Assembly: GCA_003223245.1 (NCBI GenBank)
Contig: QHYI01000114.1
Coordinates: 1-64,000 of the forward strand
DNA from: Acidobacteriota bacterium
Lineage (GTDB): Bacteria; Acidobacteriota; Terriglobia; Acidiferrales; UBA7541
DNA: 64,000 nucleotides
Direction: 5' to 3'
Shown: positions 37,247 to 52,122 of the stretch, piece by piece
Position numbering within the stretch: the first letter of the stretch is position 1
Layout: every line of letters begins with the position of its first letter
The notes under the pieces: generated by a model
The model's input: only the letters and a program-made list of their open reading frames with translations
What the model was told of the DNA's origin: nothing
Database searches by the model: none
Program-made: the position numbers and the translations under genes

Positions 37247-38122
37247 TCACTGTTCGCCAAGAAATTCGATGGTAGGCGGTCCTGGGACCAAGCCCGCCTT
37301 GGTGCCACGGACGATCAGCTCTTTTACGGCCTGCCGGCCCTTTTCGCCATAACCAAGCGTCCACTTGTTCACGTACATGCCCACAAACTGGTCAGCAAGT
37401 TCGGTATCCATTTCGCGCGCGAATTGCATGGCGTAATTCAACGCTTCTTCGCGGTGCTCCAGGCCGTAGGCCACGCTGTCGCGAATGGTCTTTGCGATTT
37501 GGCGTCCGACTCTTGTCCCCAGGGCGCGGCGAACGGCGTTGCCTCCCAGGGGAAGCGGCAGGCCGGTTTGCTCTTGCCACCAAATGCCGAGATCAATCAC
37601 CTTGTGCAAACCCTTTTCCGGGAAGAAGAGCTGTCCTTCGTGAATGAGCAGCCCCGCCTCGACAAGATTGTTCTGTACCGCATCGATGATTTTGTCGAAG
37701 GGTATGACCACCGGCTCAAAATTGGGCTCGAAAAGCTTCAGCGTAAGATACGCGGAGGTTTTCAAACCCGGAACGCCGATACGCTTGCCTAGGAGTTCCT
37801 GCGGCTTCACGGCCCTTGTGGAAACGACAATGGGACCGTAGCCCTCGCCAAAGCTGGCGCCGCAGTCGAGAAGCACGTACTTGTCGCGAAGCGAGGGGTA
37901 GGCGGCGAAGCTGATGGCGGTAACGTCGTAAGTCTCGCTCAGCGCCGCTTCGTTGAGCGATTGAATGTCTGAAAGAATGTGCGTGTACTTGTAGCCCGGC
38001 GTGGAAAGTTTGTGAGTCGCCAGCGCATAGAACATAAAAGCATCGTCGGAGTCCGGCGAATGCGCCAGCTTAATCTCGACGGATGCTGGTCCAGGTTTCG
38101 AGGCTGCTGGTTGGCCAGGCAT
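37247..38122 (-). CDS. mqnD: 1,4-dihydroxy-6-naphthoate synthase (futalosine pathway)
   Basis: It converts cyclic dehypoxanthine futalosine to 1,4-dihydroxy-6-naphthoate in the alternative menaquinone route. The 291-residue protein has the periplasmic-binding-protein-like fold of MqnA/MqnD. LAHSPDSDDAFMFYALATHK is the MqnD-specific start, and GPIVVSTR and GLLIHEGQLFF (with the catalytic His region) follow. The partner genes mqnA, mqnB and mqnC are not in the window. Confidence 0.93.
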   Translation of the reverse strand: MPGQPAASKPGPASVEIKLAHSPDSDDAFMFYALATHKLSTPGYKYTHILSDIQSLNEAALSETYDVTAISFAAYPSLRDKYVLLDCGASFGEGYGPIVVSTRAVKPQELLGKRIGVPGLKTSAYLTLKLFEPNFEPVVIPFDKIIDAVQNNLVEAGLLIHEGQLFFPEKGLHKVIDLGIWWQEQTGLPLPLGGNAVRRALGTRVGRQIAKTIRDSVAYGLEHREEALNYAMQFAREMDTELADQFVGMYVNKWTLGYGEKGRQAVKELIVRGTKAGLVPGPPTIEFLGEQ

Positions 38123-38645
38123 GGGCTGGTTGTTCCTCTTCCTTTTGCATCACGGCCGCCTGCCGGGCCATTTCCGTGCGCATTGCTTTGAGTCGGGGGC
38201 AGTGTATGGCGGCCCTATTTTGATTGATTTTCCCAAGCCTCCATCCTCGGATAGTTCCCCTCTGATCGGGAAGGCTCTTCGGAGAACGTAAGGAAGTAGG
38301 CGTGCGTCCCACGGGCTCGCGTGACGCCGGGACGAGCAATTACCTAGCTCACAAAGCGTAGCATATCGCAACTGGCCGCGACAATGTCATCCAGTGATTA
38401 ACAACCCTCTCGCCACCCTCCGGCAAACGCGATCAGTAGGCGAGGAACGTTTGTGGGCCGCCAACAGGCTGCCCGGTGAAAGGTGACCGCACGGGGCAAA
38501 TGGACAGGCACGCTCGCGCCAAAAACCTGACCGGAAGGCCAAGGTAACGGATTCGGAGGGTACCGCACTATCAGAGACTCGAAGCGCACCTCGCACCGTG
38601 GCCTACTGAAGTTAGCCTACACCCGGCCCTCGCAGTGAGGACACC
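38123..38645. other. 523-base intergenic region, no gene recognised
   Basis: It separates the divergent mqnD and a hypothetical gene. Short open frames on both strands show no family resemblance. A possible stem (CGTCCC with GGGACG) lies around 38305-38335. Promoters for both flanking genes must lie here; a small RNA cannot be excluded. Confidence 0.4.
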
Positions 38646-39125
38646 ATGAGATACAAATGGCTCGTTATGGGAGCAGCAGGAGTCAGTATTTTGTTTGGCG
38701 CTGCGGGAGTCGCTGCGCGTTCTTACAATCCGCTGAAGTGGATTAAGAAGAACCCTGGACCCACGGCGAACGAAGAGCTTGCTGCAAACAAAGAGGAAGA
38801 GCGGAAGCTCTCGCTGCAGTTGCAGGCGCTTCTTCCGCCAAAAACAACTTTAAAAGAAGCCTGCAATGGATTTCTGAGCCTGGAAAATTGCGTTGCCGCG
38901 CTTCATGTGAGCCGCAACATCAAGATCAAATTCAATTGCCTGAAATGGGATATAACCGCGGCTCGCCCGAGCGGTGATGTAAAGACCTGCGAGGCTCCGC
39001 CGAGAGCCAAGCCGTTGACCTTGATCAAAGCGATTCGCGTGTTGAACTCGGATGCCGACGCGAAGGCGGAAGCGAAAAACGCAGAGAGACGGGCCCGCGA
39101 GGACATCAAGGACGCTACGTCCTAA
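38646..39125 (+). CDS. Hypothetical exported protein
   Basis: A 159-residue protein with an N-terminal hydrophobic segment (residues 5-24) acting as signal or anchor. The rest is Lys/Glu-rich and mostly helical, with three cysteines (in EACNGF, ENCVAAL and KTCEAPP) and the segment NPLKWIKKNPGPTANEELA. I do not recognise the family. Its last bases overlap the end of the citrate-synthase fragment on the opposite strand. Confidence 0.7.
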   Translation: MRYKWLVMGAAGVSILFGAAGVAARSYNPLKWIKKNPGPTANEELAANKEEERKLSLQLQALLPPKTTLKEACNGFLSLENCVAALHVSRNIKIKFNCLKWDITAARPSGDVKTCEAPPRAKPLTLIKAIRVLNSDADAKAEAKNAERRAREDIKDATS

Positions 39126-39298
39126 CAGTTCGGCGCGAATATCGGCACCAAGGGCCCAAAATTGCTGTCCATAAACGCAGGGTGGACATCGCTGGGATAG
39201 AGCTTCCGCTTGATGAAATATTCGTCTTCGAGCGCAATCTTCTCGAGTTCCAGCGCGATGTCGAGTTTCCGGTTTCTGCCGGTGGCCACAAAGAACCG
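39122..39298 (-). pseudogene. Citrate synthase C-terminal fragment
   Basis: The minus strand reads TGRNRKLDIALELEKIAL then EDEYFIKRKLYP (residues matching bases 39194-39286), which is close to the C-terminal helix of type-II citrate synthases, normally followed by NVDFYSG. Here similarity stops at KLYP and an unrelated tail of about 22 residues runs to the stop. No start codon or other part of citrate synthase lies nearby. It touches the 3' end of the next gene. It is an orphan gene fragment, left by deletion or rearrangement. Confidence 0.72.
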
Positions 39299-39302
39299 TG
39301 CC

Positions 39303-40385
39303 CTAGAGCGAGGACACCATGCGCGCGATGGCGTCGTCGAAGTTGGCTTTCCCATCGAGGTACGGCTGCCAAAACCGCTGCAGCAGGTCGAGATAATTCC
39401 TCCAGCCACGCTGGTAGAGGCCTTCGCGAAAGGCGTAGGTGTCGTATCCGCTTGCTTGCGTGCCGTTGCTCTTGTCTAGGCGCTTGCTCGGAGAGGAAGT
39501 CAGCACCGTGCGGATGACTTCGCCAGTGGTATAGAACACTAGAGCGTGCCACAGGTCCCGGGGAATAGGTTTGTCGCGCTGACGGCACTCGCGGATAATG
39601 GCCTTCTGCACGGCTTCGGCAATTCCGTGCGAGCCCTCGTGGAAAAGCACTTCGAGCGCTTGCGGTCCTTGATTCCTGGGATCCAGGCTGGAAATCGTAA
39701 CGCGCAGCGGATCAACCGTGGTGTATGCTCCTGCCCAATTGGCATAAGCCACCACATCGACGCGGATTTTTTCATGCGGCCAGCGCGTCTGGTAAATATC
39801 CGCCAGACGCTCGGAAAGCCCCACGCCCTGCTCCCGCACCAGCGGGGCCACTTGCAGAATCCAGCGCCGGTTGGCCTGATCATGTTCGGGCCAGAGATGG
39901 GCGCGATAAACGGGAGCAGCGGCTTCCAGAACCTGTGTGAGATTTGCCGGCAAGCCCGCGTCGCAGAATTTGCGCTTGCGGCCGAAAAGTTCGTCGCAAT
40001 CCTCGAAGTCGCCGAGCTGGTCCTTCAGCTGAATCAGTTCCGTTGTGAAGAGCAGGTCTTTGTCCGCATAGTTCATCATGTAATAGGCGACAGCATCGTC
40101 CCAGGCTTTTTGTTCCACATCCGTCAGTCCTTTTCCTGCCAGCACGCTCTTGGGAGCAGTGGACTTGCTCGTGTTGGCGTCGCGCGAAAGGAATGCTTTT
40201 CGCTGCCGGGCCTCGTAATACAGCGTGTGATGAAGATTGATCCAAAACCCGCTATGCAGTTCAAAAACAGGCAGTTGCTGCGGTTCCGTATAGTTCGCCT
40301 GCGGCCGAGCTGCGCTGCTGGCAGGTGCCATCAGGCAAAGTATAAGCAGTAGGTTGGACAAAAATATGCCGAAGTAGCGCACCAT
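39303..40385 (-). CDS. Exported protein with HExxH-like motif, possible metallopeptidase
   Basis: A 360-residue protein with a signal peptide (residues 1-25, ending PASSAARP). Near residue 250 it has EVLFHEGSHGIAEAV, matching the HExxH zinc-binding motif of metallopeptidases. Other notable segments are LHSGFWINLHHTLYYEARQR near the N-terminus and WHALVFYTTGEVIR after the motif, where a third ligand Glu could lie. The family looks acidobacterial, with no named function. Peptidase activity is a hypothesis based only on the motif. Confidence 0.75.
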   Translation of the reverse strand: MVRYFGIFLSNLLLILCLMAPASSAARPQANYTEPQQLPVFELHSGFWINLHHTLYYEARQRKAFLSRDANTSKSTAPKSVLAGKGLTDVEQKAWDDAVAYYMMNYADKDLLFTTELIQLKDQLGDFEDCDELFGRKRKFCDAGLPANLTQVLEAAAPVYRAHLWPEHDQANRRWILQVAPLVREQGVGLSERLADIYQTRWPHEKIRVDVVAYANWAGAYTTVDPLRVTISSLDPRNQGPQALEVLFHEGSHGIAEAVQKAIIRECRQRDKPIPRDLWHALVFYTTGEVIRTVLTSSPSKRLDKSNGTQASGYDTYAFREGLYQRGWRNYLDLLQRFWQPYLDGKANFDDAIARMVSSL

Positions 40386-40471
40386 AACAAGTCACTCGAT
40401 AGTAGCGCCATGCGCGCGGAAGCTCAAAGGACACCGCGTGTTGTAAGGGCGGTGAGGAGTATTGAGGACCG

Positions 40472-41434
40472 CTACTCGACTTTCGGATCGGTTTCGCTGC
40501 CGACCGCGCCTTGATGGTCCGCCGCATGCAGGACGCCATTCGAATCGCGAAAAAACGAACGCCGCCCGGTCTGTCCATAGTGAAGCGGAATCGCCGATAA
40601 TGCGTATTTTGCCGGAGCACCTACGTCGCTGCCCCCCACAATCACATACCGGAACGCGTAGCCATCCTTTGCCCCTTTGGCAAGGTCCGCGTCCAGCAAG
40701 CCGGCGGCGTTCACCCCAGGGGCGCCGTGCGCGGGCGAGGCCAGGTTCGGCAGCGATTCGGGAAGGTGCAAATATTTGTCCCGGTAGGATTCCACTGCTG
40801 CGGCAATGGTTTTCAGAGACTCGAGAGCACCTTTTTCTGTTGCTTCAATTTCGGATTCATCCCACTCCACTTCGAGTGCCGGAAGGTCCAGAAGGAGCAC
40901 CCCAACAGAGAGCAGCTTCCATTGCCCGTCTTCTCGCACCAGGCCCATGTTGATCTGGCGCGCGCTTGCGCTCGTGGAATCGGTCATGTCGTGCAGCTCG
41001 AGCGGCAGAAACGCGACATTATCGCGGACTTCCGCGCCGCCGATTTGCATTTCGGTGGTCGCGGCTGGCGTCTCGCAGCGTACAATCGGCCGACCCGCGG
41101 GGTTCGCAGAAATCGTGGCTTTGCCCGGCTCATTGAGCAGCACGAAGCGTTTCATCAGTGCGACGCGGGCGGCGGGTGTCATGCGCGCAAATGATTCCTG
41201 GTTGCGAACCGTGAGGAAGCGCGTAAACTCCGCCTGGTTTTGGGAACAAGCTGCGGCCAAGGCGCTGCTCAACGCCTTGTCCGGTTTGGCTTGCGCAGTA
41301 ACTGCGCCAACGCTGCCGGCTGGGTTTGCTTCCGGCTTCGAGTTTGAATCCTGCGCGAAACAATTTGTGGCGGCAAGCAGGAAAGCGCAAAGCGCAATCA
41401 GCATGCATCCCGGATATTTCAGCTTGTATGACAT
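40472..41434 (-). CDS. Exported protein with pseudopilin-like C-terminal region, unknown function
   Basis: A 320-residue protein with a signal peptide (ending NCFAQD, about residue 28). The N-terminal domain up to about 190 has a helical start (SQNQAEFTRFLTVRNQE) and a beta-rich NTF2-like part. The C-terminal 120 residues contain ESLKTIAAAVESYRDKYLHLPESLPNLASP and later YALSAIPLHYG, like the variable domain of GspG-type pseudopilins. It seems conserved in acidobacteria. No function can be assigned. Confidence 0.75.
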   Translation of the reverse strand: MSYKLKYPGCMLIALCAFLLAATNCFAQDSNSKPEANPAGSVGAVTAQAKPDKALSSALAAACSQNQAEFTRFLTVRNQESFARMTPAARVALMKRFVLLNEPGKATISANPAGRPIVRCETPAATTEMQIGGAEVRDNVAFLPLELHDMTDSTSASARQINMGLVREDGQWKLLSVGVLLLDLPALEVEWDESEIEATEKGALESLKTIAAAVESYRDKYLHLPESLPNLASPAHGAPGVNAAGLLDADLAKGAKDGYAFRYVIVGGSDVGAPAKYALSAIPLHYGQTGRRSFFRDSNGVLHAADHQGAVGSETDPKVE

Positions 41435-41476
41435 TTCCTAGTTTTTGGCGGAATTCCTTGTTTGCGGAATTTTCGT

Positions 41477-41836
41477 TTAGTCCTTGGAGGCACTCAGAAT
41501 CGCAGCAAGATTTTGTGTGAAGCTCGATCGCGGCAAGACTTCGTTGCAGCCTGCGGCTTGCGCTTGGGCCGCAAGCTCGGTCTGCACGTGCGACAAAAAT
41601 CCCACTACGCGAATCTCCTCGCTGGCCCGCCGCACTCTTTCGATGGCCTGCAACGGCTGGCTGCGCGCGTTCAAGTCCACGATCACCAGTGCTGGCCGGC
41701 TTTCCATTAGAGCCATCAGCGCATCGCCATTCGCCGCCACTCTCACTTCCACGCCGAGTTGCTTGGCGGTTTCCGCCAGTTTCATCTGGAAAAACAGATC
41801 GTCGACCATCGCCACGACTTTTCCCATACTCCCCAT
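41477..41836 (-). CDS. Response-regulator receiver-like protein, partly degenerate
   Basis: About 119 residues, a single CheY-like domain without output domain. The phospho-acceptor position is probably D54 in ALVIVDLNA, and the acidic pocket may be DD in AMVDDLFFQM. The usual conserved Lys near the end is not clear (LPRSSFTQ in its place), so phosphorylation may be lost. The exact start is uncertain among three close in-frame codons (GTG 41842, ATG 41836, ATG 41827). No kinase is adjacent. Confidence 0.75.
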   Translation of the reverse strand: MGSMGKVVAMVDDLFFQMKLAETAKQLGVEVRVAANGDALMALMESRPALVIVDLNARSQPLQAIERVRRASEEIRVVGFLSHVQTELAAQAQAAGCNEVLPRSSFTQNLAAILSASKD

Positions 41837-41927
41837 CCTCACGTCGTTGTCTCTCGGACATTATGCGCTACTTCTTCATTACGCGAGGGATTGCGAGTAA
41901 ACTGAGCACCTCTACCGGGAGTGCCGC

Positions 41928-42458
41928 ATGCAACCTGCCTCTGCCATCGACATTCAGTCCGCCGTCTCTCTGCTAACAAAGACGCCGCAACTTCTCGAAA
42001 CGCTGCTTGCCGATTTGCCTGGCGGGCTTTTCGACTGGAAGCCCAAGCCCGACCGCTGGTCCATCTCCGAAGTGCTCGCGCATCTCGCTGCCCTCGAGCA
42101 GGTTTACGGGGAACGCGTACGGCGCATCCTGGCCGAAGATTCGCCGCCCCTTGCCAAATACGATCTGGAAGGCGCCAAAGCGCGCGGCGAATATTCGCGG
42201 GGCTCGGCCGGCGAAAATCTCGCGCATTTCACGCGCACGCGCCGCTCGGCGCTTGCCATGCTCACTCACCTGCCAGCCCCGGCGGGTGCGCGCACGGCTA
42301 TCCATTCTGAACTCGGCACAATTACTTTGGCGCACCTGCTTCACGAATGGGCCAGCCACGACCTGGGCCACTTGCGCCAGATTGCCGAGCTCTACCGCGC
42401 TTACGCGTTCTACCCCAATTCCGGCCCGTTCATGAAGTACTCGAACCCTCAACCGTGA
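41928..42458 (+). CDS. DinB-family protein
   Basis: A 176-residue four-helix DinB-fold protein. Features are DRWSISEVLAHLAALEQVYG with the first metal His and ASHDLGHLRQIAELYRA with the later His pair. Such proteins are metal-binding and some transfer low-molecular-weight thiols. Its stop overlaps the next gene's start by GTGA, so the two are translationally coupled. The partner is a glutaredoxin-like protein, which favours a thiol role (inference). Confidence 0.88.
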   Translation: MQPASAIDIQSAVSLLTKTPQLLETLLADLPGGLFDWKPKPDRWSISEVLAHLAALEQVYGERVRRILAEDSPPLAKYDLEGAKARGEYSRGSAGENLAHFTRTRRSALAMLTHLPAPAGARTAIHSELGTITLAHLLHEWASHDLGHLRQIAELYRAYAFYPNSGPFMKYSNPQP

Positions 42459-42748
42459 GCGCAGACAGCTCCCCAGAAGATGTGCGACTCCTAGCCTGCG
42501 GTCCGCGCGAGGTTACGCTCTATTCGCGGCCCGGCTGCCACCTTTGCGAAGAAGCGAAAGCCGCCATCGCGCCATTACTAGGTGAGTTCTGCGCCACTCT
42601 GCGCGAAGTCAACATCGACGAAGACGCCGTTTTGCAAGAGCGCTACGGAGGGGACATTCCGGTGATTTTCATCGGCAGGCACAAAGCCGCAAAACATCGC
42701 GTCGATCTCGCCCGGTTTCGGCGCCAACTGGAAGAAGCGCGCCGGTAA
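42455..42748 (+). CDS. Glutaredoxin-like (DUF836-type) thiol protein
   Basis: A 97-residue thioredoxin-fold protein starting with GTG inside the stop region of the DinB gene. The active site is LYSRPGCHLCEEAK, a CxxC glutaredoxin motif, and the cis-Pro is in GGDIPVIFIG. No signal peptide is visible, so it is cytoplasmic. Coupling with a DinB-fold protein suggests that both act on one thiol or conjugate. Confidence 0.88.
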   Translation: MSADSSPEDVRLLACGPREVTLYSRPGCHLCEEAKAAIAPLLGEFCATLREVNIDEDAVLQERYGGDIPVIFIGRHKAAKHRVDLARFRRQLEEARR

Positions 42749-42881
42749 CGCAATCAAAAATGCCTCAGAGGATGGTTCCTTACGGTGCGAAAATATCCGC
42801 CTGCATGCAATTCCGCTCCGGCAACTTCCGACGGTTTATCTTGTCTTCACTGTAAACTGAGAACTGAGGACTGAATACTTT

Positions 42882-43325
42882 CTAGTGCCCGCCCTCCGGA
42901 CTATGCGCGCCAACCGTTTCATCCGGCACGTCACCCTTGCGGCCCAGCACGCGGTCGTACACGCTCAGTTGGCTCACCGAGCCAAGCGCTTCGTTGTAAA
43001 AGGTTGGCACGCCCAGCGCTGTGCGCAGCTCTTCATTGAATTTCCGCAGGTTTTGCAGGTGCGACGCGAGCGCGGGGATCTTGAGTCCCTCGTCGGTCAG
43101 CAAGAATTTCTGGTAGCCCGCGTCCCACAGTCGCGTGAACTTGCCTTTCAGCATGATCGTTGGCGCAATGGTCATCTGATAGCGCTCGTCGGGGCCTTTG
43201 CGAAACTCTGCGCCGCAGCCGTACTTCTCCACGCGCACCACGCCACGCGTGCTTCCTACGGAAAATCCCAGCGCCGCCAACCCTTCAATGGCTTTCGGTG
43301 AGAACCTTTCCTCGACATTCCACAT
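42882..43325 (-). CDS. Conserved hypothetical protein
   Basis: A 147-residue soluble protein starting MWNVEERFSPKAIEGLAALG. It has a beta-rich middle (VVRVEKYGCGAEFRKG, then RYQMTIAPTIMLKG) and a helical C-terminal part. No signal or membrane segment is seen. I do not recognise a domain, but codon use and composition look genuine. It stands alone. Confidence 0.7.
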   Translation of the reverse strand: MWNVEERFSPKAIEGLAALGFSVGSTRGVVRVEKYGCGAEFRKGPDERYQMTIAPTIMLKGKFTRLWDAGYQKFLLTDEGLKIPALASHLQNLRKFNEELRTALGVPTFYNEALGSVSQLSVYDRVLGRKGDVPDETVGAHSPEGGH

Positions 43326-43708
43326 AGCTCATTCAGATTAGCGACTACGTGCATTACTGTAAAGTGCTGCCAAGGCTCCGTAAAGGCTCCGTCTCCGGTT
43401 TCATTTCTCAGCACGATTTTGTAGCGGCACGGTTGGGGATTTTTTCGCCGCCTTAGACAGGAAGCCCGGTTACGAAAACGGAATGCTCGGCAAAGCCCAC
43501 ATATCCGGCGGCTAGGCGCGCGCATCCAATTCGGAGTAAAATGGTCGTATATTACCCTGCGCCTTGCACGGGGCTAGCCCGGGCTTTCGAGCCAGTGCTG
43601 GTGCGCGGGCCCCAGGAACGCAGTAGTGTTTGAGGCATAGCCATTATCGGTCAAATCGCTACAACTGCCCGCGAATCAACGACTCAACCGAGCCGTCTCG
43701 GCGAAGTT
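43326..43708. other. 383-base region upstream of cysM
   Basis: It holds a short direct repeat (GGCTCCGT twice, about 43374-43392) and must carry the cysM promoter. No known riboswitch or coding similarity is apparent. Confidence 0.4.
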
Positions 43709-44608
43709 TTGCTCGACCGCATTGGGAACACGCCGTTATTGCGGCTCGAACGCGTTACCAAGGACTTCCCTAACGTCGAGTTTTATGCCAAGGCAGAATG
43801 GTGCAATCCCGGCGGCTCGGTAAAGGACCGCCCCGCGCTCAGCATGATCCAAGCGGGTCTTGCCAGCGGCGCGTTGCGGCCCGGCAAGACCATCATTGAC
43901 GCCACCAGCGGCAACACGGGCATCGCCTACGCCATGATCGGTGCAGCGATGGGCTATCCCGTGAAGCTTTGCCTACCCGATAGCGCTTCGCTCGAGCGCA
44001 AGCGCATCCTGGCAGCCTATGGCGCGGAGCTGGTTATCACTCCTGGCGAGGAAGGCACGGATGGCGCGATTCACAAAGTGCGCGAAATTGTTGCCCTAGA
44101 GCCCGACAAATACTTTTACGCCGACCAGTACAGCAATCCCGCGAACTGGCAGGCGCATTACCGCACTACTGCAAATGAGATTTGGCAGCAAACTTCTGGC
44201 CGCAGCACTCATTTCGTCGCCGGGCTCGGCACGAGCGGGACGTTTGTTGGAACAACGAAGCGCCTCAAGGAATTGCATCCTCAGATTCGCTGTGTGAGTT
44301 TGCAGCCCGACGATTCTTTCCACGGACTGGAAGGCTGGAAGCACATGCCCACAGCGATTCGTCCCGCGATTTACGACGACACGCTTGCGGATGAGAATCT
44401 TCCGGTTTCCACCGAAGAGGCCTATCGGCTGGTGAAGCGCTTGGCGCGCGAAGAAGGCCTGCTCGTCAGCCCCAGTTCAGCCGCTGCGCTCCTCGGGTGC
44501 TTTCAAGTTGCCAAGCGAATCCCCGAGCAGCAACACGCCGTAATGGTCACAGTTTTTGCGGATTCGGCGTCCAAGTACCTGAATGAACGGTTCTGGGACG
44601 AGGAGTGA
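43709..44608 (+). CDS. cysM: Cysteine synthase (CysM-type)
   Basis: A PLP enzyme placing sulfide, or a thiocarboxylated carrier protein, on an activated serine. About 299 residues from TTG 43709; the frame is open a further 25 codons upstream without ATG or GTG, so the true start is uncertain. The PLP lysine is in NPGGSVKDRPAL, the Asn/Thr loop in ATSGNTGIAYA and the phosphate loop in GLGTSGTFVGT. The genes that follow (JAMM protease, ThiS-like carrier, E1-like enzyme) match the CysO-dependent cysteine route of actinobacteria, where CysM uses O-phosphoserine. Confidence 0.93.
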   Translation: MLDRIGNTPLLRLERVTKDFPNVEFYAKAEWCNPGGSVKDRPALSMIQAGLASGALRPGKTIIDATSGNTGIAYAMIGAAMGYPVKLCLPDSASLERKRILAAYGAELVITPGEEGTDGAIHKVREIVALEPDKYFYADQYSNPANWQAHYRTTANEIWQQTSGRSTHFVAGLGTSGTFVGTTKRLKELHPQIRCVSLQPDDSFHGLEGWKHMPTAIRPAIYDDTLADENLPVSTEEAYRLVKRLAREEGLLVSPSSAAALLGCFQVAKRIPEQQHAVMVTVFADSASKYLNERFWDEE

Positions 44609-44621
44609 TGGAAGAAACAAA

Positions 44622-45086
44622 ATGGCCGGTGAAAAGACACTCTGGATCAGCGGGCAATTGGCGGAGAAAATCCGTGCGCACGGCGCGGAAACTTATCCCC
44701 ACGAATCCTGCGGAGCGCTTCTCGGCCGCGATTCGGAAGCAACTGATGACAATTCTGCGCGTGAAGTGCTGGCGCTGTTTCCTTTGGTGAATCGCCGCGA
44801 CGATTCGCCGCGCAACCGTTTTTCGGTGACTGCGGAAGACGTGCTGGACGCGGATCGCGCTGCGCAAAAGCAAGGACTGGAAGTCATCGGCTGGTATCAT
44901 TCGCATCCGGACCATCCGGCGCGGCCCAGCCAGTATGATCAGGATCATGCCTGGCCTTGGTACAGCTATGTGATCGTCAGCGTGCAGAATGGTTCGCCCC
45001 AGGAGATGACTTCATGGCGGCTGAACGATGACCGTCACGCCTTTTCGCCCGAAGGAATTAAGATTCGTCATACCGCGACAGTTTAA
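44622..45086 (+). CDS. JAMM/MPN metalloprotease (Mec/QbsD-like)
   Basis: A 154-residue M67-family zinc protease. The zinc site is HSHPDHPARPSQYD (H-x-H-x7-S-x2-D), with the catalytic Glu in YPHESCGALLG. In actinobacteria the related Mec releases cysteine from the Cys-CysO adduct, and QbsD-type enzymes trim carrier proteins to expose the GG end. Both roles fit here. It starts 14 bases after cysM and lies about 200 bases before the ThiS-like gene. Confidence 0.92.
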   Translation: MAGEKTLWISGQLAEKIRAHGAETYPHESCGALLGRDSEATDDNSAREVLALFPLVNRRDDSPRNRFSVTAEDVLDADRAAQKQGLEVIGWYHSHPDHPARPSQYDQDHAWPWYSYVIVSVQNGSPQEMTSWRLNDDRHAFSPEGIKIRHTATV

Positions 45087-45210
45087 GATTGATAGCGGCT
45101 GGCCTGCTTGGCGCAGGCAGGCTTTAGCCTGGCGGTTCTGAGGATTAAAGGGCTAGAAGCTGTCGTGGCGCGTCTGTAGACCCGTGCCTCTTATTGGGGA
45201 TTTTGTAGAG

Positions 45211-45255
45211 GCCGGGGTTTTGCGTTCCGGTTCTGACCGGAGAGCCCGGCGCTTT
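45211..45255 (+). terminator. Terminator- or attenuator-like hairpin before the carrier-protein gene
   Basis: A two-part stem: outer GCCGGG with CCCGGC and inner TCCGG with CCGGA, followed by GCTTTTTG. It ends 30 bases before the ThiS-like start, within an otherwise co-directional gene set, so it may attenuate rather than fully stop transcription. Confidence 0.5.
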
Positions 45256-45284
45256 TTGTGAAGAAGAATTTAAGGAGAATCACT

Positions 45285-45572
45285 ATGCCTGTAAAAGTCA
45301 TCATCCCAACCCCGCTCCGCGTTTACGCAGGCAAGCGTGCTTCCGCGGAGTTCAACGCCGGTACGGTCGGCGAAGCGCTCAAGCATCTGACAACGGAATA
45401 TGCAGACCTGCGCAAGCATCTCTTCACCGAGGACGGCAGGCTGCGGAGCTTCGTCAATGTGTATGTGAATGACGAGGACATTCGCTATCTCGCGAAAGAG
45501 AACACGGCGACCAAGGACGGCGACACCATCAGCATCATTCCGTCCATCGCCGGCGGTTGTTGTCCCCTCTAA
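45285..45572 (+). CDS. cysO: ThiS/MoaD/CysO-family sulfur carrier protein with masked C-terminus
   Basis: A 95-residue beta-grasp protein that carries sulfur as a C-terminal thiocarboxylate. Family features are GTVGEALKHL, VNVYVNDEDIRYL and DGDTISIIPSIAGG. Unlike mature carriers, which end in GG, this one ends GGCCPL, so four residues must be removed before activation. A JAMM protease encoded just upstream could do this. AAGGAG precedes the ATG at 45285. The gene symbol is by analogy with the Mec-CysO-CysM system; ThiS-like use in another pathway is possible. Confidence 0.88.
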   Translation: MPVKVIIPTPLRVYAGKRASAEFNAGTVGEALKHLTTEYADLRKHLFTEDGRLRSFVNVYVNDEDIRYLAKENTATKDGDTISIIPSIAGGCCPL

Positions 45573-45672
45573 GCTTCCGATAAAACTCTAGTTTCCATTC
45601 ATGATCAGCGTTTGCTCGGAAGTTATTTGCCCGGAATTTTTGTTATCCTGAATAAGTCCGGAGGGGCAGGGA

Positions 45673-46863
45673 ATGGCAATGGCTACAACGACTCAAGCAC
45701 AGCCCGGAACGAAGCCGGCTGCCACGCTTTCGAAGCAGGAAATTCTACGCTACAGCCGCCATCTGATCATGCCCGAAGTCGGCATGGAGGGGCAGCTTAA
45801 GCTAAAAAACGCCAAAGTGCTGCTCATCGGGACAGGCGGACTCGGCGCGCCGCTCGGTTTGTATCTTGCGGCAGCAGGCGTGGGCAAGCTCGGCCTCGTC
45901 GACTTCGACGTTGTGGATTTCACCAACCTTCAGCGCCAGGTCACTTTTGGCACGAGCGACGTGGGCAAACCCAAGAGCCAAGCCGCTCGAGCGCGCCTGT
46001 CGAGTCTAAATCCGGACATTCAGATTGAGGCCATCGAGGCACAATTGACCAGCGCAAATGCCCTCGATCTTTTCAAAGATTACGACATCATTGTCGACGG
46101 CACGGACAACTTCCCCACACGCTATCTTGTCAATGATGCCTGTATTTTGCTGGGCAAGCCCAATGTGTACGGCTCCATTTTCCGTTTCGAAGGGCAAGTC
46201 ACAGTTTTCGGCATGGCCGATGGACCATGCTACCGCTGCCTGTATCCGGAACCGCCTCCTCCAGGTCTTGTGCCATCTTGCGCCGAGGGCGGGGTACTGG
46301 GCGTTTTGCCGGGAATCGTCGGTTCCATCCAGGCTATGGAAACGATTAAACTAATTCTGGGCAGCGGCGACAATCTCATTGGCCGCTTGCTCCTGTTTGA
46401 TGCGCTGGGAATGCGTTTCCGCGAGCTCAAGCTGCGCAAAAATCCCAAGTGCCCGATGTGCGGTTCAAATCGCACGATTCACAAACTCATCGACTACTAC
46501 GAATTCTGTGGTGTGCGCGGCGAAGAAGCTCCTGCGCCAAATGTGCAAGTTCCCGAAATCACTCCGCGCGAACTGAAGACGCGCCTCGACCGCGGGGACG
46601 ATCTTTTCATTCTGGATGTGCGCGAGCCGCACGAATTCCAGATTTGCAATCTCAAAGGCCACTTGATTCCGCTGGGCGAATTGCCGCGGCGCGTGCATGA
46701 ACTTGATTCCTCGCGCGAAATCGTCGCGCATTGCCGCAGCGGCAAGCGCTCCGCGGAAGCCGTGGATTTTCTGCGAAAAGCGGGCTTCCGCAAGGTGCTC
46801 AACCTGAAGGGCGGCATCCTCGCCTGGTCGGACGAGGTCGATCCGTCCGTTCCCAAGTATTAG
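45673..46863 (+). CDS. moeZ: E1-like adenylyltransferase with C-terminal rhodanese domain (MoeB/MoeZ-type)
   Basis: A 396-residue enzyme that adenylates the carrier protein's C-terminal glycine and then transfers sulfur to it. The nucleotide-binding part is LIGTGGLGAPLGLYLAAAG and VDFDVVDFTNLQRQ. A zinc site uses CYRC and CPMC. The rhodanese domain (about residues 295-390) has the active-site VAHCRSGKRS with the persulfide cysteine. The order after the carrier gene matches thiocarboxylate-forming systems such as MoeZ-CysO. GGAGGGG lies before the ATG. Confidence 0.94.
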   Translation: MAMATTTQAQPGTKPAATLSKQEILRYSRHLIMPEVGMEGQLKLKNAKVLLIGTGGLGAPLGLYLAAAGVGKLGLVDFDVVDFTNLQRQVTFGTSDVGKPKSQAARARLSSLNPDIQIEAIEAQLTSANALDLFKDYDIIVDGTDNFPTRYLVNDACILLGKPNVYGSIFRFEGQVTVFGMADGPCYRCLYPEPPPPGLVPSCAEGGVLGVLPGIVGSIQAMETIKLILGSGDNLIGRLLLFDALGMRFRELKLRKNPKCPMCGSNRTIHKLIDYYEFCGVRGEEAPAPNVQVPEITPRELKTRLDRGDDLFILDVREPHEFQICNLKGHLIPLGELPRRVHELDSSREIVAHCRSGKRSAEAVDFLRKAGFRKVLNLKGGILAWSDEVDPSVPKY

Positions 46864-47007
46864 TTTGACAATTTTGCGGGGTGGACATCTGGCCGCGGCT
46901 TTACGCCGCTGCTGCACCACTTCCCGCTTGTCGACCGCGCCGCTCACGCCCGTGGCCACTTGTGAGAATTCTTTGTTAAAGGCATACTCGGTCGGCGAGG
47001 AGAAAAA

Positions 47008-47241
47008 ATGGCGGCGACCAAAATCACCATCAGAAACAACGGCTCCATACGCGTGGAAGGCGATTTTGAAATCCTCGATCCCGAGGGGAAGCCCTTTGGG
47101 CTGGCGGGGCAGACGGCGATTTCACTTTGCCGCTGCGGGCACTCTGCGAACAAGCCTTTCTGCGACGGATCGCACAAAACTTCCGGCTTCACAGACACGG
47201 TAGTCGCCCGCGAACTCCCTCCTCCCAAACCAAAGGGGTAA
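47008..47241 (+). CDS. CDGSH iron-sulfur domain protein
   Basis: A 77-residue protein whose CRCGHSANKPFCDGSH motif provides the three cysteines and one histidine that bind a 2Fe-2S cluster in CDGSH proteins. It is soluble, without the membrane helix of mitoNEET. Possible roles are redox sensing or cluster transfer. AGGAG lies upstream of the ATG. It follows the sulfur-carrier genes by 145 bases, which may be meaningful since both concern sulfur. Confidence 0.93.
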   Translation: MAATKITIRNNGSIRVEGDFEILDPEGKPFGLAGQTAISLCRCGHSANKPFCDGSHKTSGFTDTVVARELPPPKPKG

Positions 47242-47462
47242 TTCAGACCGAAACCAGAACCCTCCCTAATTAACGTTAAACCCATTGCCTTGACGGTCGT
47301 CCGGCCGCTTCTGCTCGAGATTTTCCTCTTGCCGGGCTGCCGTCGCGAACTGCGGTCAGAGATTCAGCAAACCACTTTGATCGCTTGACTGCATGGCGCG
47401 GCCAGCAGCCGGCGCCACAATCTCCATGTCGGCCAAGCTTTCCTCGCGGCCTGTTTCAAGGG

Positions 47463-47500
47463 TGAGACGTCTCAACCTGAGATATTTCTCATTGTCTCAG
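47463..47500. promoter_or_regulatory. TGAGAC/GTCTCA palindrome cluster upstream of the GGDEF gene
   Basis: A perfect 12-bp palindrome TGAGACGTCTCA (47463-47474) is followed at once by an inverted repeat CTGAGA...TCTCAG (47477-47500). Four copies of the same half-site thus sit in 38 bases. It looks like an operator. The surrounding 500-base region (47242-47741) has no recognised gene. Confidence 0.5.
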
Positions 47501-47741
47501 TGATACTGGCCCTTTGCCCGGTAACTCTAACGAAACAAAAGAGGATAGCGTTCCATTTTGGATAATCCCTGCGTTTCATGCCGTCTCGCAGCCCCGCGCG
47601 CACCGATATCCACTTTCCTGTAGACCGAATAACTGATTTGTTTTCATTAGATTGCCAGCCTGCTCGGTCGCCGTAAAGAAAGGGCACAAACTTGCTCTAC
47701 TTGCCGGTTGTCCGTGTTTCTTTGGTAGTTTGGGGGATTTC

Positions 47742-49100
47742 GTGGGAAGTTGGCCGAGTATCACGGGATTTCTCGGGAGCAGCCGCCGGGCGCTTTCGGA
47801 GCGGAACTTTCGTGCGCGCTTCCTGTTTGCCACCAGCCTAACTGTGGTAACTCTCCTCCTCGCGGTTATCTTCTACTCGCGGCAGACTCTCCTGGCAGCT
47901 TCGCCGCAAGCTTATCTCTACCTGGAAGTGGGCGGAACGCTTCTTTGCTACTGCTATGCGGCGAATGCCCTGGTGCGATTCCGCGGCACCCATGACCGAA
48001 CCGCCCTGATTCTCTCCTTCGGATTTGCGCTCTCGGGAATCATTGAGACCATGAGCTACGTTGGATTCAACGACGCCCTGAACGCCGGAACTCTGGTGCT
48101 TTCGAAGGTTCCGCTCGGGTGGATGGTTAGCCGAACGCTGCTTGCGGTTCTGCTGCTCGCTGCGTTGGCGGTGGAACGCTACATGCCCACGGCGCGCAAG
48201 CCAAGCAAAGAGACCGCCGCGGTTTTGCTTGTGGTGGCTGTGGCGGCATACCTGACCAGCGCTGCCTTTCTCGCAGCTCCTTCCGCGCCGGTAGCGAATG
48301 CGAAAAACATTCTGTCTCGTCCCTGGGACCTGCTTCCCGCCGCACTTTATTTGACCGCGGCGATGTGCTTCTGCCAGCGCGTCAAGAATGAGAAGGACAA
48401 AAAGACCAGCGCAAACCTCTTCGACTATTCGCTGCTCATTGTGGCTTCCTTGAATGCGATCTGCCACGTCTGCGCTGCATTTTCTCGGCAGCTCCTCGAT
48501 GGCCCATTCTTCCTGGCCGAATTGAGCAAGACCTTCAGCTACTTGGTGATGCTCTCCGGCGCCTTGCTGGATCAAGCCCGCCTGTTTGAACAGGTGCGGA
48601 CCATGGCGGTGAGCGATCCGCTCACTGGACTCGCGAATTACCGCCGCCTCATCAGCGTGCTGGAGGCGGAGCTGGACCGTTCGCGCCGCACGCAACGTCC
48701 CTTCAGCGTGGTGCTCCTCGACATGGACGGCCTGAAAGCCATCAACGATCAGTACGGACACTTAACCGGCAGCCGCGCGCTGGTGCGCATCGGAAAAGTT
48801 CTTCGCAATCATTCGCGGGCCATCGATACGGCCGCGCGCTACGGCGGCGATGAATTCGGGTTGGTTTTGCCGGAAGCCGGAAAGGATATTGCGACCCGAG
48901 TCGTGACGCGAATTCGCGAACGGCTCGCTGCGGAAGCCGAGGCGCCGGCACTGTCGGTCAGCGCCGGGGTTGCCGCTTATCCGGAAGACGGTGACACACC
49001 GGAAAAGCTTATTGCCTCCGCCGATCGGGCCCTCTACATCATGAAGCACGGCGGCCGGAGCAGCGTGCAAAATCTCGCGCGGATAGCCGCGTGCCTGTGA
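47742..49100 (+). CDS. Membrane-bound diguanylate cyclase (GGDEF)
   Basis: About 452 residues from GTG 47742, which has GGGGGA upstream; an in-frame TTG at 47652 is an alternative. The N-terminal 270 residues contain seven or eight predicted membrane helices forming a sensory module of unknown class. The C-terminal GGDEF domain (about 155 residues) has the intact active site RYGGDEFG and the substrate-binding SDPLTGLANYRRL. It should make cyclic di-GMP. A PilZ protein gene follows by 15 bases. An inhibitory RxxD site is not obvious. Confidence 0.9.
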   Translation: MGSWPSITGFLGSSRRALSERNFRARFLFATSLTVVTLLLAVIFYSRQTLLAASPQAYLYLEVGGTLLCYCYAANALVRFRGTHDRTALILSFGFALSGIIETMSYVGFNDALNAGTLVLSKVPLGWMVSRTLLAVLLLAALAVERYMPTARKPSKETAAVLLVVAVAAYLTSAAFLAAPSAPVANAKNILSRPWDLLPAALYLTAAMCFCQRVKNEKDKKTSANLFDYSLLIVASLNAICHVCAAFSRQLLDGPFFLAELSKTFSYLVMLSGALLDQARLFEQVRTMAVSDPLTGLANYRRLISVLEAELDRSRRTQRPFSVVLLDMDGLKAINDQYGHLTGSRALVRIGKVLRNHSRAIDTAARYGGDEFGLVLPEAGKDIATRVVTRIRERLAAEAEAPALSVSAGVAAYPEDGDTPEKLIASADRALYIMKHGGRSSVQNLARIAACL

Positions 49101-49115
49101 GGATCGCCATTCAAA

Positions 49116-49433
49116 ATGCCACTCGACACCAAATTCGTTTTTCACCGGACGGAGCAGCGCATTTTGATGGAAATTCCCGTGCTGATCGACGGCCATCGCG
49201 AGGCGCCCGGCTTGGAATCGACTTTTACGGAAAACGTGAGCGCGCGGGGAGCGCGGGTAATTACCGTGCGCCGCTGGGTACAAGGCGAATCTCTGAAGTT
49301 CGCCTCGCGCACCGGAGAGTTTCGTTCCTCGGCAAGAGTAGCCTACTGCCAATCGTTGCAAGGCGAAGGCTTTGCCATTGGCGTGGAGTTTCTCAATCCG
49401 AGCGGGCGATGGGTTGTTCAATCCCCAAGATAG
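49116..49433 (+). CDS. PilZ-domain cyclic di-GMP-binding protein
   Basis: A 105-residue single PilZ domain. The c-di-GMP-binding RxxxR is RTEQR (residues 11-15) and the second motif is ENVSARGARV, matching D/NxSxxG. It is 15 bases after the diguanylate cyclase gene and probably acts as its receptor. The C-terminus VGVEFLNPSGRW is typical of acidobacterial PilZ proteins. It is followed by a very strong terminator. Confidence 0.9.
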   Translation: MPLDTKFVFHRTEQRILMEIPVLIDGHREAPGLESTFTENVSARGARVITVRRWVQGESLKFASRTGEFRSSARVAYCQSLQGEGFAIGVEFLNPSGRWVVQSPR

Positions 49434-49511
49434 CTTGACGCATTGCGGCGAGCGGATCGGAGGCGAACGCCTGGAACAAAGAGAAGTCAGATTACTAGCG
49501 CAAATGTTTTT

Positions 49512-49569
49512 AAAAGAGAGAAGCGCCTGGCAGCCCAGGAAACGAAACTGCCAGGCGCTTCTCTCTTTT
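49512..49569. terminator. Strong bidirectional terminator
   Basis: A perfect 22-bp stem (49512-49533 with 49548-49569) closing a 14-base loop, with T-runs on both strands at the base of the stem. It sits between the convergent PilZ and methyltransferase genes and should stop transcription from both sides. Confidence 0.92.
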
Positions 49570-49577
49570 TCGCTCCC

Positions 49578-50321
49578 TCATTTGTCTGCGGCAGCCGGCA
49601 TTTTTTTGGCGATGAGCATCAGGCATTCACCAAAGAGAAGAGAAAAAGAATGCAGCGTGCGACGAATTTCCTTGTTGTGTTCTCGTTGGGCGGCATCCTT
49701 TTCTTTTCGGAAGGCAATCGCGGTATAAAGGCAAATCCACGGAACGTAGAGAGAATAGATGTAGCTGATGGGCTTGATGTGCGTGTGGCGGACTTCCACT
49801 AGCTTGAAACCGGAAACGTGAAGTTCGTAGCGCAGCTCAGGAAACGTTGCTAGGCCGATGTGGTGAAGCGGATGCCGGGCGGATTCGTTCAGCGGTCGCG
49901 CATCGCGGCCAAAAAAGCCGCTGCCGAGGAACCGCACGCGTGAACGCAGCGCCGTGATGTTCGGCGTCGTTAGCACTAAAACGCCGGCAGGCTTGAGGAT
50001 GCGATTGACTTCGCGCAGAAAGGAAAAATGATTCTCGAGGTGCTCGATTCCTTCGGTGGAGATCACTGCGTCAAAACTTTGGCCTGGCCAAGGAAGCGGC
50101 GCATCCAAGTTTACTTTCTGAAAGGCCGCTCCCAGATGCACAGCAGCTTGTGGAGCAATGTCCGCGCCAAGGGCCTTGAAACCTTGCTCTCGAAGAGCGA
50201 GCGTGAGCGCGGCGCCGCCACCGCAAGGAGCATCGAGAAGGCGCGCGCCGGAGGGCAGCCCAAGTGCTGGCAGATGATTTAGCACGGCGCGTTGAATTAA
50301 GGTGAGTTCGGTTGCGTTCAT
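49578..50321 (-). CDS. Class I SAM-dependent methyltransferase
   Basis: A 247-residue Methyltransf_11/23-type protein. The SAM motif is LLDAPCGGGAALTLAL, followed by FDAVISTEGIEHLENHFSFL and LKPAGVLVLTTPN. The C-terminal part is hydrophobic (YIYSLYVPWICLYTAIAF), suggesting membrane association. Its ATG overlaps the upstream glycosyltransferase stop by ATGA, so it is the last gene of a three-gene glycan operon. It may methylate a sugar on a lipid-linked glycan. Confidence 0.9.
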   Translation of the reverse strand: MNATELTLIQRAVLNHLPALGLPSGARLLDAPCGGGAALTLALREQGFKALGADIAPQAAVHLGAAFQKVNLDAPLPWPGQSFDAVISTEGIEHLENHFSFLREVNRILKPAGVLVLTTPNITALRSRVRFLGSGFFGRDARPLNESARHPLHHIGLATFPELRYELHVSGFKLVEVRHTHIKPISYIYSLYVPWICLYTAIAFRKEKDAAQREHNKEIRRTLHSFSLLFGECLMLIAKKMPAAADK

Positions 50322-51412
50322 GTTTTGCGCCGCTTCCGGAGAACGTCTTCGTACACTTGCAAGGTGCAATCCACCATGCGGTCTGCGGTGAAGCGCTGTT
50401 GAATTGCACCCCTCGCAGCCGAGCCAAGGCGCGTTGCAAGTCCCGGCTCGCTCAACAGCCGGAGCATGCCTATGGAGAAGAGTCTTTGATCGGGAGGCGA
50501 TACCAGCAGACCCGTAATACCGTTTTCGACGTATTCGGGTACGCCTCCGCTTGCTGCTGCTATTACCGGCAGGCCCCAGGCCATTGCTGCAAGCAGGGAA
50601 GTTCCTAACGGTTCAGCCAAGGAGGGAAACACAAACGCATCCAGGGCCGCGTAGACTTGCGATACGTCGTTTACGAACCCGGCAAAAATGGCGCTGTCCT
50701 GTAACTCTTGCTCACGCACTAGCCCCTCTAGTTGCGGTCGGCAAGGCCCGTCACCTGCTAACACCAGTCGGACGTTTGGAAAGTTCGCGCGTACCGAGGG
50801 CAAAGCGCGCACGACGATTTCCTGCCCTTTTTCCGGAAGCAGATAACCGACCGAGCCAAACAATATCTCTCCTTCGCTAACACCCCAGCGCTTTCGGGCA
50901 CTTTGCCGCGTTTCCGGGGACACCAACGAAGGTATTTCGACGCCCTCGTAGACGATGGCAATCTTTTCTCCAGGAATACCGGAGTCGAGCACACTCCTCG
51001 CAACAAACCTCGAAATGGCCAGCACTCGATCCACGTTTTCGTATCGTTTTCGAGAGAGCAGGCCCTTACCCAGGGGGTAGGCCACCCTTCGAGAAGTAAC
51101 CACTGGAACTCGTCTATGGCTTCTCGCCAACCAAGAAGACGTAAGCGCGTGCGGTTCATTCGCATGAATCAGATCGTATTTATGTTTCTTCAATAGCTGT
51201 CGAAGAAGATGAACAGTTGCAATTCTCCGAGAACCTGTTCTGACAAGGTGGACTGGGACGCCAGCAGTTTCTGCTCTTTCTGCAAGCGGGCAGCCGCCAG
51301 CAGCGAGCAAGTGCGCATCATGTCCGCGCACGCGCAAGCCACATAGCGTCAGCAGCGCCTGGCTCTGCCCGCCGCGCCATTCGCGCTCCAGGTCTACGTA
51401 AAGCACTTTCAT
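50318..51412 (-). CDS. Glycosyltransferase family 4
   Basis: A 364-residue GT-B retaining glycosyltransferase. The N-terminal domain has the glycine loop (ERGGQSQALLTL-like: EREWRGGQSQALL) and the C-terminal domain has VGYLLPEKGQE and the sugar-nucleotide-binding PSLAEPLGTSLLAAMAWGLPVI, with E-x7-E. ATG 51412 overlaps the upstream GT2 stop by ATGA. A role in LPS core or surface-glycan assembly is likely from the neighbours. Confidence 0.92.
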   Translation of the reverse strand: MKVLYVDLEREWRGGQSQALLTLCGLRVRGHDAHLLAAGGCPLAERAETAGVPVHLVRTGSRRIATVHLLRQLLKKHKYDLIHANEPHALTSSWLARSHRRVPVVTSRRVAYPLGKGLLSRKRYENVDRVLAISRFVARSVLDSGIPGEKIAIVYEGVEIPSLVSPETRQSARKRWGVSEGEILFGSVGYLLPEKGQEIVVRALPSVRANFPNVRLVLAGDGPCRPQLEGLVREQELQDSAIFAGFVNDVSQVYAALDAFVFPSLAEPLGTSLLAAMAWGLPVIAAASGGVPEYVENGITGLLVSPPDQRLFSIGMLRLLSEPGLATRLGSAARGAIQQRFTADRMVDCTLQVYEDVLRKRRKT

Positions 51413-52122
51413 GAGGCTTTCACAGGAGATGCGCGACGTTCCGCTTCGACGAGTTTTCCCAGTTTCTTGAATTTCAGCCAGACCCCGCGAGACGCCATTC
51501 GCGAAATGAGCCACCCCCGAGAACCGTCCAGAAATCCGCCGCGCAACACAAACGTGCTGAAGCACGTCCACGGTGTTGCCAGCCACATGGCGGCGCGCCA
51601 GCTTCGCTTTCCTGCTTCGTACATTTGCCGCGCCGCCAGCGTGGTATAGCGCTCGACTTTCTCTTCATGCTCCGCGCGCGAGTGCATGGTGTAATGAAAC
51701 AAATCTCCGTGCAGTCTTCCGGCTTTGCCTGTGAACTGCAACGACTCGTGGACGATGCCGTGAAAGCTGGCAACGTCACGACGGTAGAGGCGCCGCTGGT
51801 AGTCCGGGTACCATCCTGAGTGTTTGATCCAGCCACCCAGGTACCACGCCCGGCGGGCGGCTTCGTACACGCCGAATTCCGGTTCTTGCTGTTTCCATGC
51901 GATAACAGACTGCTGAAGTTCGGGACTCAGTTCTTCATCGGCATCGAGCGACAGGATCCAGTCGTTGCCCGCGGAGGCTGCCGCAAGATTTTTTTGTTGT
52001 GCGAAGTCCGTCCATTCCCTCGTAATCACCTTGGCCTTGTGTGCCCCGAGCGAACGCAGCGCGCGCGGCAAGTTGCGTTCCTCGTTCCATGTAATCAGGC
52101 AAGCGGAGAGACGACTCATCAC
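51409..52122 (-). CDS. Glycosyltransferase family 2 (WaaE-like) lacking its DSGSTD segment
   Basis: A 237-residue GT2 protein similar to LPS-core beta-1,4-glucosyltransferase WaaE/KdtX. It opens with LSACLITWNEERNLPRALRSLGA, but then jumps straight to HKAKVITREWTDFAQQKN. The roughly 24 residues that normally stand between, containing EIVVVDSGSTDGT with a nucleotide-binding Asp, are missing, in frame, near base 52041. The DxD motif (SLDADEELSP) and acceptor-domain motifs (GWYPDYQRRLY, HESLQF) are intact. As written the enzyme is probably inactive. It is first in the overlapping GT2-GT4-methyltransferase operon. Confidence 0.85.
   Translation of the reverse strand: MMSRLSACLITWNEERNLPRALRSLGAHKAKVITREWTDFAQQKNLAAASAGNDWILSLDADEELSPELQQSVIAWKQQEPEFGVYEAARRAWYLGGWIKHSGWYPDYQRRLYRRDVASFHGIVHESLQFTGKAGRLHGDLFHYTMHSRAEHEEKVERYTTLAARQMYEAGKRSWRAAMWLATPWTCFSTFVLRGGFLDGSRGWLISRMASRGVWLKFKKLGKLVEAERRASPVKAS

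Follow-up and report, generated by a model that had tools for sequence, protein, structure and literature searches.

In the biosynthesis of thioquinolobactin (QbsE/QbsD) and in that of methionine in Wolinella (HcyS/HcyD) the sulfur carrier carries residues after its Gly–Gly (GG) motif which are removed by a JAMM protease. The CysM–CysO–Mec system of Mycobacterium tuberculosis consists of a CysM, the sulfur carrier CysO, and a JAMM protease, together with a MoeZ-type E1. Here we analyzed a stretch of 64,000 nucleotides from a soil Acidobacteriota bacterium (contig QHYI01000114.1 of assembly GCA_003223245.1, positions 1–64,000; hereafter the window), in which genes of the same four kinds adjoin on the + strand (43637–46863) in the order CysM-like protein of the PALP family, JAMM protease, ThiS/MoaD-type sulfur carrier, and E1-like protein with rhodanese domain. 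The carrier of this locus is encoded with four residues beyond GG, and we suggest that the locus is probably a carrier-dependent cysteine operon in which the carrier is made as a tailed precursor and trimmed by the JAMM protease.

The operon itself is not new. An operon of the same four families is listed with Acidobacteria (Susi) in Table 1, row 4c, of Iyer, Burroughs and Aravind (2006; PMC1779556), who also proposed the link to cysteine, and by adjacency and strand of the four genes our locus belongs to this type. The preliminary description of this DNA had regarded such a set outside the actinobacteria as a new variant, which can thus not be maintained. It is the variable carrier tail that is new: the sections of that paper devoted to the operon mention neither a variable tail nor a fusion of carrier and E1, both of which we found here, although the paper does point out that a JAB protein could free a ThiS/MoaD domain fused to another protein. 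Nor did the open-licence titles and abstracts searched yield a description of this carrier with a tail or fused to its E1, or of cysteine leaders in Acidobacteria.

The related systems differ from our locus in several respects. Unlike in M. tuberculosis CysM–CysO–Mec, the E1 gene adjoins the carrier gene, and ClpS, listed for the actinobacterial operon in the table mentioned above (row 4d), is absent among the nine window proteins that were scanned for domains. With the QbsE/HcyS type our locus shares the residues after GG and a partner JAMM with complete catalytic motif; the products differ, however, and here the extension may have any length and sequence, up to the complete fusion to E1. The proposed processing also resembles the molybdopterin pathway of Deinococcus, for which PMC8832034 describes that DRJAMM cuts a linear MoaD–MoaE fusion and leaves a C-terminal Gly. 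There the carrier is joined to its target enzyme, whereas here it is joined to the E1.

Organization and conservation of the locus

The CysM-like gene (43637–44608, +) codes for a putative pyridoxal phosphate-dependent cysteine synthase of ∼323 amino acids (aa; PF00291, 4.9e-69). Its best NCBIfam model is cysM with 347.8 bits, which is under the cut-off of 394.2. The N-terminus MAITGQIA of the relatives aligns with the ATA codon at 43637, and the start at 43709 given previously is a TTG internal to the gene. The relatives have ATG where the window has ATA, which is either a rare start or an assembly error. The gene is followed by that of a JAMM/MPN+ metalloprotease of the Prok-JAB family (44622–45086, +; PF14464, 4.9e-26) and by the carrier gene (45285–45572, +, 95 aa). 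The open reading frame (ORF) list has the carrier begin at an upstream GTG (45258), whereas the relatives start at an ATG matching 45285. A gap of 100 nt (45573–45672) separates the carrier from the E1-like adenylyltransferase with C-terminal rhodanese domain (45673–46863, +; ThiF 4.9e-85, rhodanese 9.1e-16). This protein is MoeZ-like: the MoeB/MoeZ models of NCBIfam rank top, the first two of them under their cut-offs. Judging from the relatives, the second ATG (45679) may be its start codon.

Conservation of the gene order was determined in two sets of loci (single loci are denoted by L numbers), 45 ortholog loci from relatives within the class and 80 named loci. As 23 carriers are common to both, the two sets are not independent. 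In 42 of the 45 relatives' loci all four genes stand in the order CysM, JAMM, carrier, E1; one of the 42 (L078) holds only a truncated E1 piece, and the three misses are contig ends. CysM lies just 5′ of the carrier in 43 of these 45 loci, the other two again being contig ends. Of the 80 named loci 67 show the full order; of the 13 incomplete ones, eight are without CysM and JAMM close by, four are without CysM only, and one is cut before E1. The four-gene arrangement is not due to chance, and the conservation of the order, which the preliminary description proposed to check, is borne out. In three draft loci genes are broken (JAMM in two pieces in L055 and L153, E1 and CysM each in two pieces in L059), by sequencing error or decay.

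The usual neighbors of the carrier in the relatives are thus CysM, JAMM, and E1. As far as tested, the carrier does not stand with thiamine or molybdopterin genes, which were not scanned by name in each locus. The genome has a separate MoaD adjoining MoaE, which ends VSGG, and a separate ThiS, which ends VGGG, both at GG.

The carrier and its tail

The core of the carrier (residues 1–91, 45285–45557; PF02597, 6.6e-13) ends PSIAGG, a motif invariant in 21 aligned carriers. It is followed by CCPL and the stop codon (45558–45572), so that the protein ends ...IIPSIAGGCCPL and the residues after GG reported previously are confirmed. The tail CCPL is predicted to be removed. The NCBIfam model SAMP1 scores 57.1 bits, slightly under its cut-off of 60. 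Among solved structures the best matches are 4n6e_B (6.1e-17) and 3dwg_C (2.2e-16); we take the latter to be M. tuberculosis CysO and the former to be CysO-type, which would place the carrier nearest to CysO-type chains and agrees with the likening of the set to CysM–CysO–Mec in the preliminary description. These chains end at GG, although they may be constructs, in contrast to the GGCCPL of our carrier.

When each distinct carrier of the pooled loci is counted once, 141 carriers are obtained: 109 complete stand-alone ones, 31 that read in frame into E1, and one cut by a contig end (L078), likewise reading into E1. Only two of the 141 end at GG (L076, L160). The other 107 of the 109 stand-alone carriers extend beyond GG by 1 to 35 residues, which have no common sequence (CCSC, CRS, VPAME, RS, IF, SSEKR, etc.). 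Thus, of the idea that the carrier is masked by GGCCPL the presence of a tail holds in the relatives, but the sequence of the tail does not, and as the latter differs between nearly all species GGCCPL is not a specific mask.

In an alignment of ten fusions the linker of 17 to 21 residues from GG to RYSRH is mostly free, whereas the GG end before it and RYSRHLIMPEVG after it are conserved. One of the 31 fused frames stops within E1 (L059, a draft). Many fusion linkers hold an in-frame GTG, TTG, or ATG and E1 may therefore have a separate start in those; 3 of 16 linkers have none. In a draw of 395 genomes of the phylum, 142 have the carrier at E ≤ 1e-30, and 91 of these have a stop-to-stop frame of at least 372 aa. 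Of the 29 best-matched loci of this draw 16 were read, and all 16 continue into E1. Both the variability of the tail and the fusions are new relative to the known operon: the end of the carrier is encoded almost anywhere beyond GG, up to the complete fusion to E1. Such variation is difficult to account for unless the carrier is matured by proteolysis, and it turns a guess on one genome into a pattern found across the phylum.

Probable maturation of the carrier by the JAMM protease

The genome, the assembly of which is 95.8% complete, contains no second match to the Pfam family of the JAMM protein. Its residues E28, H93, H95, S103, and D106 are invariant in 50 aligned sequences, and 45 of the 46 JAMM pieces show the motif HxHx7SxxD; the other one is a piece of the frameshifted copy in L055. 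The AlphaFold model (mean pLDDT 88.2) has its best match in the Protein Data Bank with 2kcq from Salinibacter ruber; the third match is 5lda, JAMM1 of Pyrococcus furiosus with SAMP2. With the Glu, the HxHx7SxxD motif, and the predicted MPN fold the protein belongs to the JAMM/MPN+ family. In the phylum draw a JAMM gene is present somewhere in 141 of the 142 carrier genomes; the lone genome without a match (G182) is a 91% complete draft in ∼650 contigs. Such a JAMM is also found in 35 genomes of the draw in which the carrier does not reach the cut-off.

As a control MoaD was inspected. Of the 57 genomes with a match the best 30 were read, all of the own genus, and in all 30 MoaD ends exactly at GG. 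In the tails of the carrier the residue after GG, unlike those that follow, is constrained and mostly small. Among the 100 unfused tails of at least two residues 70 begin with S, A, C, G, T, or V, whereas shuffling within the tails gives 49.6 and none of 5000 draws was as high; in the fused linkers the same holds for 28 of 31 as compared to 17.4 by shuffling. The bias thus also exists in the fusions, and it persists when the RCICS tails described below are left out. Proline does not occur directly after GG in any of the 131 tails and linkers.

Tails, fusions, the MoaD control, and the co-occurrence with JAMM form the pattern that would be expected of a precursor cleaved after GG. The carrier therefore very likely needs trimming and the JAMM protein is the candidate protease, as had been supposed in the preliminary description; tails, JAMM occurrence, and first-residue bias agree on this. 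Some points weigh against this interpretation. The residue classes were chosen after seeing the residue table, and the counts treat related genomes and carriers as independent. In addition, many of the other 27 MoaD genomes have frames of more than 230 aa, possibly MoaD–MoaE fusions.

We suggest the following course of events. The translation product would be an inactive carrier precursor extending beyond GG, and the JAMM protease would cut after GG. The E1-rhodanese would then adenylate the freed glycine and add sulfur as a thiocarboxylate, and the CysM would join this thiocarboxylate to an activated form of serine, for which O-phosphoserine is the most likely candidate, giving carrier-cysteine. 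Finally the same JAMM protease might cut GG–Cys and free the cysteine. A single protease could perform both cuts because the Cys encoded after GG, as in CCPL or in the GGC end of a second carrier of this genome, forms the same bond as in carrier-cysteine. As the genome has a single JAMM match, this protein would have to serve both carriers. An enzyme that cuts GG–Cys could also cut before other small residues; the stop codon of the carrier would therefore be free to drift and its loss would cost nothing. In this way both the unrestricted tail sequences and the frequent in-frame fusions to E1 could be accounted for. This also suggests how ubiquitin-like precursors can arise, namely by drift of the stop codon once a protease is present. 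The natural tail variants are a set of substrates with which JAMM processing is testable.

Cysteine as the probable product

By analogy with the known systems the four-gene set most likely makes cysteine from sulfur held by the carrier, a product suggested by homology and genomic context. No CysE was found in the genome at E ≤ 1e-20, the best weak match having 1.2e-4. Among 61 relatives (CysE at E ≤ 1e-25, two partial matches counted) 10 of the 46 that have the ortholog carrier also have CysE, as do 10 of the 15 that lack the carrier (p = 0.003). The figures are 10/34 and 9/10 (p = 0.001) for relatives at 90% completeness and 3/29 and 5/7 (p = 0.003) within the own genus.

Several results speak against the cysteine route or leave it less distinct. 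Outside the own genus CysE occurs in 7 of 17 relatives with and 5 of 8 without the carrier (p = 0.41), and in the phylum draw in 67 of 142 with the carrier (E ≤ 1e-30) and 121 of 253 without it (p = 0.92). With a more stringent threshold for the carrier (1e-36), which was chosen post hoc, the numbers are 18/72 and 170/323 (p = 2e-5). The exclusion of CysE, present in the 61 relatives and gone in the 395 phylum genomes, was thus rejected as a proof of an O-phosphoserine route, and the weak anticorrelation of carrier and CysE is regarded as context only. A cystathionine beta-synthase that scores above its cut-off is encoded in the genome as well, and cysteine could therefore come via reverse transsulfuration. 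Neither carrier (E ≤ 1e-30) nor CysE (E ≤ 1e-20) is found in 132 of the 395 phylum genomes.

Lys211 of the CysM is invariant in 21 aligned orthologs. Aligned by eye it stands at the position of an Arg in the M. tuberculosis CysM segment, presumably Arg220, which we take to be needed for O-phosphoserine. However, Arg is also found at this position in 2jc3 and 2bhs, which are chains of cysteine synthase B, and Lys211 therefore does not single out O-phosphoserine as the substrate.

Cysteine-rich tails and a leader-like element

The clade of the window comprises 39 distinct stand-alone carriers at ≥72% identity; three fused carriers were excluded from the count. Of the 245 in-frame tail codons of this clade 28 code for Cys, as compared to 5 and 2 of the 245 codons in each of the two other frames, and to 14 of the 780 codons downstream of the stop. 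Cys is contained in 14 tails out of the 39. Among the 107 stand-alone carriers with E1 in reach (two without E1 were dropped), the carrier–E1 gap measures at least 70 nt in 53, of which 38 have Cys in the tail, and is shorter in 54, of which 7 do. When the RCICS family is left out, the figure for long gaps is 17 of 32, that for short gaps again 7 of 54.

This RCICS family is a sister family (f6) in which the carrier ends with RCICS-stop or a near variant and a GCCUGGG...CCCGGGC hairpin begins at the stop codon. The junction element is seen in L068, L072, L175, L178, L186, L193, L195, L201, L202, L210, L213, and most of L251–L286. A model of the stretch matches 28 of 200 genomes of the class, all of them f6. 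In seven genomes the element also occurs away from the carrier end, 5′ of cysteine-synthase-like genes and always with a C-x-C-x-stop frame; in one of these cases (L283) a second carrier gene lies between the standalone element and the cysteine-synthase-like gene. In L272 and L283 an ATG gives MRCICS-stop, and longer upstream frames are open too. The seven outer pairs of the hairpin hardly vary, and its support therefore rests on the inner stems, which in 18 of 23 cases have a z under −1.5 against shuffles. The RCICS-stop with its hairpin looks like a cysteine leader peptide. For mycobacteria, polycysteine leaderless short ORFs have been described (Canestrari et al. 2020, as cited in PMC13236596), which according to this citation are likewise Cys-codon leaders before cysteine genes; unlike these, the Cys-codon stretch in f6 is merged with the C-terminus of the carrier itself.

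Related frames were noticed at other places. Between JAMM and a CysM of L263 (∼1450–1525) there is a frame MPVKVITPTSSIAGSTVLRCICT which starts MPVKV and keeps SIAG; it seems that a carrier gene has shrunk here and has been retained as a leader. The carrier–E1 gap of L206, L211, and L216 holds poly-Cys mini-ORFs, and so does L197 ∼1.8 kb before the end of the carrier, ahead of CysM; examples are MPLLSTCCCCCPLCCCR and MSLSLRCICCCCC. In L211 the poly-Cys stretch is in frame with the carrier. A Cys-rich mini-ORF is present in 5 of 62 gaps where 0.7 are expected. As a general feature ahead of CysM such mini-ORFs were rejected (4 of 92, 2.5 expected).

In the window the f6 element (CxC-x-stop with GCCUGGG hairpin) has no match at E ≤ 1, and none in the own genome at E ≤ 0.001. 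Terminators are not in excess (5 found between 43300 and 47300, 5.2 expected), no structure in common with relatives was seen, and Rfam at gathering scores gave no match in seven loci and in positions 38000–52000 of the window. The lack of an element match, of excess terminators, and of a common structure makes the leader idea a lead only for the window. Pairing of the tail codons with the E1 ribosome site was also considered and dropped: its mean probability in the window is 0.36, while the relatives range from 0.00 to 0.82, Cys-containing tails do not separate clearly from Cys-free ones, and the gap is poorly conserved. The element has no match in the 395 phylum genomes, which says little since no f6 genome is among the 206 carrier-bearing ones listed for a draw of the same size.

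It is conceivable, though we consider it doubtful, that the removable tail is a built-in cysteine sensor: the Cys codons after GG would stall the ribosome when cysteine is scarce and so control E1, and the JAMM protease would erase the leader peptide afterwards. This is best supported in f6 and weaker for the CCPL of the window. If true, one protease would allow the coding end of a gene to serve as a regulatory leader. In any case the Cys-rich tails, the long gaps, and the standalone leader-like frames raise the question whether a disposable tail can carry gene regulation.

Alternative explanations

The carrier might be a general sulfur donor, for example, for tRNA thiolation or molybdopterin, or a protein modifier, with CysM as an incidental neighbor. 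In agreement with this, NCBIfam places the carrier nearest to SAMP1-type modifiers, the JAMM protein resembles P. furiosus JAMM1 bound to SAMP2, and such an E1 serves several carriers in mycobacteria, where according to PMC3227635 MoeZR sulfurates both CysO and MoaD, which is also a precedent for the cysteine operon suggested above. Neither CysM nor JAMM is close to the carrier in 8 of the 80 named loci, which also counts against a cysteine operon; two of these (L216, L200) are near contig ends, L214 has CysM and JAMM further away, and six of the eight are labelled Sulfotelmatobacter or Acidobacteriaceae. We nevertheless consider a general donor unlikely, given the position of CysM directly upstream in all relatives' loci but the two at contig ends, the separate MoaD and ThiS of the genome, and the best structural matches, which we take to be CysO-type.

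That the tail is only the by-product of a cis-regulatory leader peptide with Cys codons at the carrier–E1 junction, and JAMM trimming incidental housekeeping, is quite improbable in our view. The in-frame excess of Cys codons in the clade of the window, the association of Cys tails with long gaps also outside the RCICS family, and the standalone RCICS-type frames before cysteine-synthase genes in f6 would fit. However, 47 of 54 short-gap tails are without Cys, as are the fusions, the window has neither a match to the conserved element nor terminators above chance, and the first-residue bias does not depend on the RCICS tails and is seen in the fusions too. Finally, the tails might be meaningless, if the E1 accepted an extended carrier or the carrier functioned without a free GG. 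The lack of conservation of the tail sequence is what such a view would predict. It is contradicted by the constraint on the first residue, by the presence of JAMM in all carrier genomes of the draw but one together with the end of MoaD at GG in each locus read, and by the chemistry of E1 enzymes of the ThiF/MoeB/Uba4 type, which needs a free C-terminal glycine; we regard it as very improbable indeed. Thus, a cysteine operon with a carrier trimmed by JAMM remains the reading that we prefer.

Neighboring genes and a second carrier

Downstream of E1 the window encodes a CDGSH iron–sulfur protein (47008–47241, +; PF09360, 3.1e-19), and a CDGSH gene follows directly after E1 in 28 of 29 loci of close relatives (L035–L063). 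The second carrier of the genome, the one ending GGC, is located at C13:2707–2982 on the − strand and is paired with a threonine synthase, as also in L004, L085, L080–L084, L087, L088, and L092. This pair could carry out a carrier-dependent step on O-phosphohomoserine. Another threonine synthase, of the PRK08197 type, is encoded elsewhere (L103).

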